IMG/VR virus record: IMGVR_UViG_3300032116_000471
Span: 1 to 41,543 of that record
DNA: 41,543 nucleotides
Strand: one strand, 5' to 3'
Source: a virus
Below, piece by piece: positions 2,472 through 5,560 of the stretch. Position numbers and translations under genes: made by a program. The stretch's first letter is position 1; each line of letters opens with the position of its first letter. The notes under the pieces are model-generated. The model saw only the letters and a list, made by a program, of their open reading frames with translations. It was not told the origin of the DNA and did not search any database.

Positions 2472-3455
2472 ATGGCATCGATTCGGAAGCATAAAAATAA
2501 ATGGCGGGCTGAGGTTCGGATTAAGAAGTTTTTTGCTTCGAAAATCTTTGACACTCAGGCGCAGGCGAAAGACTGGGCGCATGAAATAGAGCGCATGGTG
2601 AAGGGGCATGGTGGGCAGCTGGTTAGCAGCACGCTCGGGCAGGCCATGCAGAAATATGCTGATGAAATATCACCCACGAAAAAAGGCGCGCGCTGGGAGC
2701 TGGTGCGTTTGAAAAAACTGCAGCGCGATCGGCTGGCGGATTTCACGCTGCTTTCGCTGCAAACGCAGGATATTCAAGACTGGATTGAAACGCAGGAAGC
2801 GACGCTTTCTGGTGCGAGCATCAACCGCGAGCTGAATCTTATCGCTGCCGTGCTGCGCGTGGCGCGGCAAAAATGGAAATATATGACAACGGATATCATG
2901 GACGGTGTCGTGCGGCCAAAAAGCACACCGCCGCGTCGGCGCAGGATTTCGGATGAAGAAATCAAAAAGTTGATGCGGGCGCTGGAATATAAAGAAGGAA
3001 AGCCGGTGCAAACGCCGCGTCAACGAATCGCGCTGAGCTTTTTGCTGGCGCTGGAAACGGCTATGCGTCACGGCGAAATTTACGCGCTGGAATGGCAAGA
3101 CGTGTTTTTGAAAGAACGTTATGTGCGGCTGCATGAAACCAAAAATGGCACATCGCGCGATGTCGGGCTTTCGCTGCGCGCGGTTGAGATTTTGAAAATG
3201 TTAAAAGCGGTGGCGGAAGGAAATAAAGTGATCGGAGTGCGGGCGCAAACGGCGGAGGTGATTTATCGCCGTGCAGTGGAGCTGGCCGGAATCACGGATC
3301 TAACGTTTCATGACACGCGCCACGAAGGTATCACACGGCTCGCGCGCAAGCTCGATGTGCTGGATCTGGCAGAAATGGTCGGGCACCGCGATATTCGCAG
3401 CCTGCGAATATATTATAACCCGACCGCAAGTGAGATTGCTAAGCGGCTGGATTAG
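2472..3455 (+). CDS. int: Tyrosine site-specific integrase
   Basis: A 327-residue recombinase that integrates and excises the phage at attP/attB. Residues 1-50 form a basic arm-binding domain (RKHKNKWRAEVRIKK), about 55-150 the SAM-like core-binding domain, and 160-327 the catalytic domain. Catalytic residues visible: Arg199 (TAMRHGE), Lys224 (ETKNG), His280 and Arg283 (HDTRH), His305 (GHRD), and the nucleophile Tyr314 or Tyr315 (RIYYNP). All are intact. No Shine-Dalgarno is visible before the ATG, which follows the tandem repeats directly. The 3' end overlaps the convergent gene at 3439-4083 by 17 bp. Confidence 0.95.
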   Translation: MASIRKHKNKWRAEVRIKKFFASKIFDTQAQAKDWAHEIERMVKGHGGQLVSSTLGQAMQKYADEISPTKKGARWELVRLKKLQRDRLADFTLLSLQTQDIQDWIETQEATLSGASINRELNLIAAVLRVARQKWKYMTTDIMDGVVRPKSTPPRRRRISDEEIKKLMRALEYKEGKPVQTPRQRIALSFLLALETAMRHGEIYALEWQDVFLKERYVRLHETKNGTSRDVGLSLRAVEILKMLKAVAEGNKVIGVRAQTAEVIYRRAVELAGITDLTFHDTRHEGITRLARKLDVLDLAEMVGHRDIRSLRIYYNPTASEIAKRLD

Positions 3456-4083
3456 TTTTTCTAATAAAACTATCAACATTCATTTTGTGGACTTCAAACT
3501 CGATCACCCACACATAGGGGTTTATATCCCATGATTTATCACCGTTTAATGATCGCCATAGGCGAGCGTAATCTTCTTGTGGGCTTATAAGTGGCTGCAT
3601 TTCTAGGCAGCCTACGATTTCAGTATTTTTTTTATCGAAGTATGGTCGGCAACCTTCCGCTATGGCATCGACTTCGCTAATTTCCTGCAACCGCTCAACT
3701 CGCACGTTGGTGATTTTTAGCGTGAGGCGTGAAGCCCAGCGCGGTATATGTATTGAAGGCTTCCACCCTGCACCTTTGTGCCATTCTTCGTCGGCGCGGT
3801 AATAAACGCTTTCTACGGCTGACCTTTCAATTCTAAATGACTCTCGCACCCAAATCAGGTCGTCAACTTTACCGTATGGGCAGTACCAAGAAGCTAATTT
3901 TGGAAAATCTTCAACATGCGTTCCGGCACACCCCTTGAAGCCGCCTAAACAGCCATCCCACCTATAAGATCCATTATCGTGTATAATTGGCTGCGGCTTT
4001 ATTGGTCGTCGGGTTTGTGTTTTACGACCATCAAGCAGCGCGCGTGCCATTGGTGGGGAAAATAAAAGTGGACGGGCTTTCAT
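3439..4083 (-). CDS. ASCH/PUA-like phage protein
   Basis: A 214-residue protein of a widespread phage type, with an N-terminal RPLLFSPPMARALLDGRKTQ stretch followed by TRR, then WVRESF, a central HIPRWASRLTLKI stretch and a C-terminal WVIEFE. From memory this matches a conserved phage family with an ASCH-like RNA- or nucleotide-binding fold; its function is not established. The residues after WVIEFEVHKMN form a short extra tail running into the convergent integrase gene. It is the last gene of the leftward operon, 17 bases after the cytosine methylase stop. An AGAAAG sequence precedes the ATG. Confidence 0.75.
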   Translation of the reverse strand: MKARPLLFSPPMARALLDGRKTQTRRPIKPQPIIHDNGSYRWDGCLGGFKGCAGTHVEDFPKLASWYCPYGKVDDLIWVRESFRIERSAVESVYYRADEEWHKGAGWKPSIHIPRWASRLTLKITNVRVERLQEISEVDAIAEGCRPYFDKKNTEIVGCLEMQPLISPQEDYARLWRSLNGDKSWDINPYVWVIEFEVHKMNVDSFIRKTNPAA

Positions 4084-4100
4084 GATAAAATACTTTCTTG

Positions 4101-5002
4101 TTACGGTTTAATTTGCATCACTGCTTTAATAAATTCTGCTGCGACTTGCGGAACGATTGCGTTGCCGTAGGCGCGGATTTTAGATGCTCCATGCTGAATC
4201 CCATCATCCACGCTGCGAAGTTTGGGTGAATGTACTGGCCATCCCCCGTTGAAGTCCGCAAAACTTCCCGAAGATTGCCGTGACTTTCCTTGCTTCCGCA
4301 AAACCGTTTTGCAGAAGCCCCCTTTGCATCGCTTGTTGTCAGGGTTGGGAGTAGTGGGATTGTTTGTATTGGATGATTCTGATTCCATTTTAGCTGTTCT
4401 GCAAGGCAACCAGGGGTTATCGTTTTTCTTCCAATTTTCTCCCTCCACTGTGATCTTGCTTCCATTGACTCCTTGCTTCGTGTTGATATTGATGTCGCTG
4501 TTAATGTTTGCCACAAAAAAATCCTATCTCTTCCATGTGGTGCCGTGACACTATAAGCTGGTAATACACACGCCGCGCAGGCGTAATTCTCTTTTTCCAT
4601 ATCGCTACTGACATCATCCCACCATCCAGTGGCAATTCCGTCTTCAACTTGTTCACCAAAAATCGTTGTAGGTTTTGACTCTCGGATGAGCCTAAACCAA
4701 TGCGGCCATAAGTGACGCTCATCTGATTGCGCTTTTTTCTTTCCCGCGACGCTAAATGGCTGGCAGGGACAACTTCCTGTCCAAACAGGTCGAGAATCGG
4801 GCCATCTTGCAAGTCTGAGCGCGTAACTCCAGCCTGCGATTCCTGCAAAGAAATGGCACTGAGTGAATCCTTTGAGGTCATCTGATCTGACATCTATAAT
4901 GCTCCGTTCATCAACTTCACCTGACGCAATATGACCGGCGCTAATAAGATTTCGTAACCACTGAGCCGCAAACGGATCAATCTCGTTATAGTAGGCCGCC
5001 AT
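4101..5002 (-). CDS. dcm: DNA cytosine-5 methyltransferase, frame interrupted at a T7 run
   Basis: Residues 1-162 contain FFAGIAG (SAM site), the catalytic PCQPFS with Cys80, FGEQV and HGRDRIF. These read in one frame from the ATG at 5002, which has AAGGGAG upstream. The remainder of the family pattern, including FVANIN after the HGRDRIF motif and motif X GNAIVPQVAAEF, is in the -1 frame and ends at 4101. The change of frame falls at seven T on the coding strand (4515-4521), where ATT TTT TTG forms the heptamer T_TTT_TTG. Either -1 ribosomal slippage or one missing T explains this. Without it, the enzyme would lack motif X. The same DNA carries a second conserved-looking frame (next entry). 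Confidence 0.8.
4118..4893 (-). CDS. Overlapping-frame protein embedded in the cytosine methylase gene
   Basis: A second reading frame begins at an ATG at 4893 with GGAG eight bases upstream. It runs to the same T7 run (stop at 4501 if unshifted), then would continue by the same -1 step to 4118. Its N-terminal half has LDLFGQEVVPASHLASRERK and SVTYGRIGLGSSES. The second half has LPTLTTSDAKGASAKRF and HPNFAAWMMGF. From memory these are motifs of hypothetical or methylase-annotated phage proteins (compare TPTxRDxK and WLMGFP). They are exactly the alternate reading of the methylase codons; for example WPTPT-type motifs arise from the frame beside FVADAD. Whether the protein is made is unknown. 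The well-placed ribosome binding site supports translation. Confidence 0.5.
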
Positions 5003-5024
5003 ATCAATATTACTCCCTTCAAAA

Positions 5025-5294
5025 TTACCGCCAGCGCAGCGCCCAGGCCTTGACCTCTTTGGGAATCCAGCGGCGGCAGCCACGAAGGTTTCCGGTCGGC
5101 AGCGAAACCGCTTTTGGAAAAGCGGGGTGCGTGATGACGTGGCTTTGCACGTAAGTTTTTTTAAGCATGAGATATTGCGCGATTTTCTCGGCGCTCCACA
5201 GCGAATCCTCTTCTTTGCGCTGCGTTTTGATGGCGTCCAACACCAGTTGTGGAATGGTTTGAATCAACGCTTCGATGTTAGTTTGTTTGGTCAT
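5025..5294 (-). CDS. AlpA/excisionase-like HTH protein (89 aa)
   Basis: The segment DSLWSAEKIAQYLMLKKTYV followed by RRWIPKEVKAWALRW fits a MerR/AlpA-type winged helix in which the second part lies against the minor groove. Such small proteins serve as phage excisionases or regulators. The start at 5294 is chosen because its ATG overlaps the upstream stop (ATGA); a longer frame to 5357 would invade the previous gene. It is a candidate for the Xis function missing beside the integrase, but a regulatory role is as likely. Confidence 0.7.
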   Translation of the reverse strand: MTKQTNIEALIQTIPQLVLDAIKTQRKEEDSLWSAEKIAQYLMLKKTYVQSHVITHPAFPKAVSLPTGNLRGCRRWIPKEVKAWALRWR

Positions 5295-5560
5295 GATTTT
5301 TTCTTTTCGCTGGAGTGGATGGTGTAGATCGCCTTTTTGCTGCCGCAAAGCCAGCATGGCGGTTGCGCGCGCGGGTCGAGGCGTTTGATTTTATCTTCTG
5401 AAACCAAGTTGCCGATCGTGACGCGAATGGTTTCGGATTTTGTGTTTGCAAACCGATAGTTTTTGCACACGTTGCTTTCAATTTTCAGCGAAGTGAGGCC
5501 TTCCGGATTGATTGAAAGCAGGTTTAAAATGGCTTGGCGCAGGGACAATTTTTTCAGCAT
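5291..5560 (-). CDS. Hypothetical protein, possible winged helix (89 aa)
   Basis: A small basic protein: an N-terminal helical segment (LRQAILNLLSINPEGLTS), then TIRVTIGNLVSEDKIKR, a layout reminiscent of a winged-helix DNA-binding domain, and a CWLCG pair near the C-terminus. I do not recognise the family. Both ends overlap neighbours by a few bases (ATGA at the 3' end), so it is translated within the leftward operon. Confidence 0.65.
   Translation of the reverse strand: MLKKLSLRQAILNLLSINPEGLTSLKIESNVCKNYRFANTKSETIRVTIGNLVSEDKIKRLDPRAQPPCWLCGSKKAIYTIHSSEKKKS

Follow-up and report, generated by a model that had tools for sequence, protein, structure and literature searches.

The window analysed here (positions 1 to 41,543 of IMG/VR record IMGVR_UViG_3300032116_000471, 41,543 nucleotides in all) carries, on the minus strand at 4101-5002, the gene for a C5-cytosine methylase, here called alpha (PF00145; PHROG 363), and a second open reading frame, beta (PHROG 1008), which lies in the +1 frame and overlaps alpha for about 775 bp. 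Both change frame at a run of seven T residues (4515-4521), and in the sequence as given neither is unbroken. The N-terminal part of alpha (4517-5002) holds motif I (HFFAGIAGWS), motif IV (PCQPFS, 4768-4751), a motif VI-like GEQV and motif VIII (HGRDRIF, 4537-4517), with PCQPFS and HGRDRIF in a single minus-strand frame, and was aligned to motifs IV-VIII of M.HhaI by way of alignment A2. The C-terminal part (4101-4514) is read in the next frame, where VANIN and GNAIVPQVA (4166-4140) are found, and consists of an unconserved passenger stretch followed by motif X, GNAIVPQVAAEF, with its core at 4140-4166. The C5 motifs I, IV (PCQ), VIII and X are therefore all present in the window copy, motif X in the shifted frame. 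PF00145 matches alpha at 54.9 bits (cut-off 22), and PHROG 363 matches both of its pieces (E 1.2e-61 and, over profile positions 238-316, 1.5e-9). The exact point at which alpha changes frame cannot be placed, because alpha is not conserved between motif VIII and motif X.

Beta starts with an ATG at 4893-4891, preceded across an eight-base spacer by GGAG at 4905-4902, just as the original prediction had described it; a homologous ATG is found in 58 of 80 relatives. The frame contains LDLFGQEVVPAS. The N-terminal part of beta (4504-4893, minus strand) is in +1 within alpha, is predicted to form a helix and a beta-hairpin, and meets a stop just past the T run, the frame being open to about 4501-4504. 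Owing to the break, the C-terminal part (4121-4516), a member of the cassette family discussed below, lies in the upstream frame of alpha, in which beta runs on through LPTLTTSDAKG (4351-4319) and the motif-IX-like HPNFAAWMMGF (4228-4196) to 4118. PHROG 1008 matches both pieces (E 3.4e-12 and, over positions 259-286, 1e-4), stopping at 4516 in one frame and restarting at 4513 in the next. The predicted change of frame of the methylase motifs at the T run is thus confirmed by reading of the sequence and by the matches of PHROG 363 and PHROG 1008 on both sides of it. As sequenced, 5002 to 4118 is one open frame of 294 amino acids, in which motifs I-VIII of alpha are fused to the putative recognition and motif-IX part of beta and motif X is out of frame. 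Except for the break at the T run, there is no stop within either the alpha or the beta frame, and the catalytic motifs are intact. The gene just downstream of the pair (3439-4083) matches PHROG 874 (E 6e-70), to which no function is assigned. An open reading frame at 1055-1870 has a DPPY motif and the look of a Dam-type adenine methylase, which may be a second methylase of the phage.

The second frame is not peculiar to this phage. Retrieval with alpha only gave 80 viral loci, and in all 80 the beta profile found beta in register +1; retrieval with beta only gave 79 viral loci and 80 loci in bacterial genomes, and alpha overlapped beta in the same register in 79/79 and 80/80, respectively. 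Beta was never found without alpha among the loci fetched by beta. One apparent non-overlapping homologue, in Acidovorax phage Alfacinha3, was rejected when the other frames revealed a different C5 methylase lying over beta, again with beta in +1; homologues of the second frame at separate loci, which would have counted against an overlapping gene, thus did not appear. Throughout the alpha-fetched set most of the gene can be read without a stop in +1 but not in +2. The median open run in +1 is 300 codons in the relatives, against 138 in synonymous-codon shuffles, and the longest +1 run lies beyond 99% of the shuffles in 59 of the 80 loci, compared with none of the 80 for the +2 frame; the shuffle test is conservative, since the shuffled codon usage is already shaped by beta, and several of the single-locus tests were non-significant.

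Beta matches 204 records in named phages of Escherichia, Klebsiella, Salmonella, Xanthomonas, Rhodobacter, Pseudomonas, Vibrio and others, and divergent methylase lineages, such as those of Alfacinha3 and of Synechococcus and Microcystis phages, share the arrangement. PHROG families 1008 and 31772 correspond to beta and are labelled 'DNA methyltransferase', yet they represent the other reading frame and contain none of the catalytic motifs. Both frames have been noted by a few annotators (K1ind1; fTaEco01, as 'Mte8-like'). Public annotations conflict (for example at L002, L095 and L098): some give both frames, in that of Alfacinha3 it is the beta frame that is called the methyltransferase, and many give alpha only.

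The action of selection on the two frames was examined by codon-position divergence in 35 disjoint pairs of loci, with positions numbered in the alpha frame. Before the overlap the pattern is that of an ordinary gene, with a divergence of 0.413 at position 3 and 0.082 at position 1. In the 5' half of the overlap, position 3 is lowered to 0.288, and in the 3' half position 1, which is the wobble position of beta, becomes the most divergent (0.217, compared with 0.117 at position 3 and 0.086 at position 2); after the overlap, position 3 returns to 0.345. Codon-aware rates were obtained from ungapped pairwise alignments, using disjoint pairs instead of a tree and weighting transitions by an assumed factor of 2. 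Per 1000 opportunities, changes silent in alpha and altering beta number 125 before the overlap, 63 in its 5' half, 31 in its 3' half and 174 after it, whilst changes altering alpha and silent in beta number 7.9, 19.8, 73.8 and 8.7 in the same regions. In the 3' half this last rate (about 74) is close to that of doubly silent changes (77). A control family in which the cassettes lie in the catalytic frame has a normal pattern in the same region (position 3, 0.291; position 1, 0.146), as do the genes flanking the loci at 80-98% identity; at 70-80% identity these flanking controls were noisy, probably through wrongly chosen ORFs. Constraint thus passes from alpha in the 5' half to beta in the 3' half, where the rates of the substitution classes mean that alpha is nearly neutral and beta is under purifying selection.

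The beta start is also kept. It overlaps a conserved Asp codon of alpha that is GAT in 57 of 68 cases, compared with 99 of 207 at other Asp codons (P 1e-7), and nine loci that do not have this ATG have one four codons further on. A Shine-Dalgarno match of at least four bases precedes 51 of 65 beta ATGs, as against 143 of 882 other ATGs (P 1e-25). The locus sets fetched in both directions, the codon-aware rates, the start-site evidence and the single-frame control family together support the dual coding over about 770 bp that had been proposed, and the 3' half of the overlap answers the objection that the second frame might be free of constraint. Beta is a real and widespread gene, and one stretch of DNA is put to dual use in hundreds of phages and prophages.

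The C-terminal half of beta is built of one to six tandem '(W/L)PTPxxxD' cassettes, with a median length of 36 amino acids, followed by a motif-IX-like segment, LNPxxSRWLMGxP. In 71 proteins 197 cassettes were found, and the same types recur at different positions in different phages. The window probably has two between motifs VIII and IX, one beginning LWQTLTATS and the other LLPTLTTSDAKG (4319-4354, minus strand), a division made by inspection. In the family of the window the motif-IX-like segment is in the +1 frame and the alpha consensus has no such segment (alignments A1, A2 and A4), so that motifs I-VIII and X fall to the large chain and motif IX to the small one, an assignment of motif IX made by pattern and by in-frame counterparts. 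In the window itself the segment has diverged (WMMGFSMEH, compared with the usual WLMGxPxxW).

The same cassettes occur in more than one arrangement. Mycobacteriophage Yorick and its relatives have them in the catalytic frame, between motif VIII and motif IX (FPEWMMGWP), with motif X following. Papez, CheeseTouch, Darolandstone, ReT1v-2 and a Streptomyces plasmid have the cassettes in +1, with motifs IX and X left in the frame of alpha. In the family of the window both the cassettes and motif IX are in +1. When frame-broken loci are excluded, 16 of 38 in-frame mycobacteriophage cassettes match a +1 cassette, whereas shuffled controls gave 0-1; an example is LPTPSAADGGGGHLTRSGDRSHELLLPGVA of Yorick (frame 0) and FPTPQAADGMGGHLNRSGSRKHELLLPGVA of CheeseTouch (+1). 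C5 methylases carry their target recognition between motifs VIII and IX, and for this reason beta is most likely to be the target-recognition and motif-IX subunit of a split methylase, a role on which the original prediction had made no proposal. The placing of motif IX in beta rests on the LNPxxSRWLMGxP pattern and on the in-frame counterparts in L179 and L183.

Beta has no match to PF00145, and nothing credible was found for it in Pfam, NCBIfam or PDB sequence searches. AlphaFold2 models made with 36 and 80 sequences had low overall confidence (pLDDT 61-63), and comparison of the model with solved structures, methylases included, gave no fold match. The N-terminal helix and hairpin are better defined in the model of a relative, L045 (pLDDT block means 76-96), and are a candidate for the contact with alpha, the remainder of the model being too uncertain for use. 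Several loci depart from the usual form. In Dunaliella viridis virus SI2 (L096:1913-2317) the locus is shortened and most of the alpha catalytic core is missing, and the recognition and motif-IX part of beta and motif X are retained, still in register. In EBPR siphovirus 2 (L093:503-2995), alpha has a long in-frame insertion that matches ribonucleotide reductase and helicase PHROG families, suggesting an intein. L057 has two alpha/beta pairs, the second of which (4593-5367) lies about 1 kb downstream.

The locus is thus very probably that of a two-polypeptide C5-cytosine DNA methyltransferase encoded by one stretch in two frames, with beta as the recognition and motif-IX subunit. The basis of this reading is the presence of both frames, the conserved +1 register, the beta start signals, the relay of constraint and the homology of the cassettes. 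Motifs I-VIII, for catalysis and AdoMet binding, and motif X would come from alpha. Translation of beta would start inside alpha, from its own ribosome-binding site on the same message but one base over, and beta would supply the target-recognition cassettes and motif IX, the two chains assembling in trans. In the 3' half, alpha would read through the beta cassettes as a mostly unconstrained linker on the way to motif X. Tandem cassettes may confer several target sequences, as in the multispecific phage methylases, and the phage genome could in this way be marked against several host restriction enzymes. We infer that beta is expressed and joins alpha, that activity depends on it and that it determines the specificity, with one target per cassette, and that the enzyme has an anti-restriction role.

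Conservation of the second frame could in theory be passive, beta being no gene but a by-product of reading conserved, GC-rich methylase codons one base over. Most of the loci have a GC content of 0.55-0.65, and open frames are longer at such GC; several of the single-locus tests were, as noted, non-significant, and in the 5' half the likeness of the beta frame between methylase families may indeed be partly passive. Passive conservation, however, is the reverse of what is found in the 3' half, where beta is the constrained frame and alpha nearly neutral; the +2 frame shows no such excess, the beta start codon and Shine-Dalgarno sequence are kept beyond the needs of alpha, and the single-frame control family has an ordinary codon pattern. 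This explanation is extremely improbable. That beta is real but has some other function, for instance as an anti-restriction or regulatory protein whose overlap with the methylase is due to chance, is less easily dismissed, given that beta has no structural or Pfam match and that its N-terminal 120 amino acids are unlike any methylase part found. It too is unlikely, in view of the single-chain methylases that have the beta cassettes in their catalytic frame, between motifs VIII and IX, of the motif-IX-like segment that beta has and alpha lacks, and of the presence of alpha at every locus fetched by beta.

The split enzyme, on the preferred reading, is interrupted in the window copy, where a one-base difference in the length of the T run breaks both frames. 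The original prediction had set a widespread overlapping gene against a local accident: the overlap is indeed general, but the break itself is probably local, either an indel or other mutation or an assembly error. The T run could instead be a working slippery site, at which programmed frameshifting or transcriptional slippage yields both a fused chain of 294 amino acids and the split pair. A run of seven T is plausibly slippery, a single slip would suit alpha and beta alike, translation without a slip would yield a long fused chain, and a general fault in the assembly of homopolymers is not evident, as the window has two dozen other runs of at least seven bases, some of them in open ORFs. On the other hand, the relatives examined have no T run at the motif VIII junction (nearby runs of at least five bases are mostly G or C, and elsewhere), a pattern search of viral contigs gave no second copy of the T7 stretch, and a small share of other loci are broken in frame elsewhere, the pattern expected of single indels. 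A functional slippery site is accordingly very unlikely. Decay of the window copy to a pseudogene is rather doubtful, though a good deal less so: both frames are interrupted and the motif-IX-like segment has diverged, but a single break is all that interrupts frames otherwise free of stops, and no catalytic motif is damaged. Alpha matches in two frames were also seen at L012, L036, L050, L056, L129, L230, L237, L290, L292 and L296; in the viral loci among these beta is in two frames as well, and indels, real decay or a second copy are possible causes.

With regard to evolution, it is reasonably likely, though far from assured, that cassettes have moved between the catalytic and the +1 frame, giving three layouts (everything in-frame; only the cassettes in +1; motif IX in +1 as well). 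Beta would then be a separate specificity subunit, with up to six shuffled tandem cassettes lying over a near-neutral alpha linker, and the loci would form a large and mostly unrecognised class of split multispecific phage methylases.

Outside small viruses, to our knowledge, two functional proteins seldom overlap at length on the same strand. Here such an overlap takes up the greater part of an enzyme gene, in hundreds of phages and prophages, with constraint handed from one frame to the other, and the locus provides a clean natural system for the origin and upkeep of overlapping genes. Should beta prove to be the specificity subunit, an annotation with alpha only overlooks the region that chooses the target, and PHROG 1008 and 31772 carry the wrong label. 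A methylase cloned without beta would then not work, and the methylation motifs of phages could be predictable from their cassettes. No description of the widespread +1 beta was found in the literature searched, most of it outside subscription journals; the scale of the overlap, the relay of constraint, the cassette arrays and the occurrence of cassettes in either frame are new with respect to that literature.

A second frame hidden in a phage methylase is also found in ShiLan, where the out-of-frame HNH element is an inserted homing endonuclease (PMC11855218). Beta, in contrast, is not an insertion, and 36 beta members gave no match to an HNH domain.

The closest precedent for the alpha/beta pair is M.EcoHK31I, whose small ORF is nested within the large one but read in a different frame. 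In the published account M.EcoHK31I is a two-polypeptide C5 methylase (YGGCCR) with motifs I-VIII and X in the large subunit and motif IX in the small one, the layout of chains that is also assigned here; the recognition domain is predicted there in the large subunit, whereas here the rates place recognition in beta, and the passages on this enzyme make no mention of tandem cassettes, a feature of the beta family (PMC3404938). Searches of plasmids for a recognisable EcoHK31I locus returned only generic methylase names. M.AquI resembles alpha and beta in that two subunits share the C5 motifs (PMC3404938). It has a single cut in the variable region and both motifs IX and X in the small subunit, whereas here motif IX is in beta and motif X in alpha, and, unlike the subunits of M.AquI, beta lies wholly or almost wholly within alpha.

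The cassettes have their own parallels among single-chain enzymes. The C5 methylases of Bacillus phages (SPR, phi3T type) have several tandem recognition cassettes between motifs VIII and IX and are multispecific; there the cassettes are in the catalytic frame, whereas in the family of the window they are in +1 and would form a separate polypeptide. Among the mycobacteriophages, the Yorick-type methylases (L183, L188-L206) have the same PTP cassettes and the same motifs IX and X as the family of the window, but have everything in one frame, with no cassettes in a second, overlapping one.
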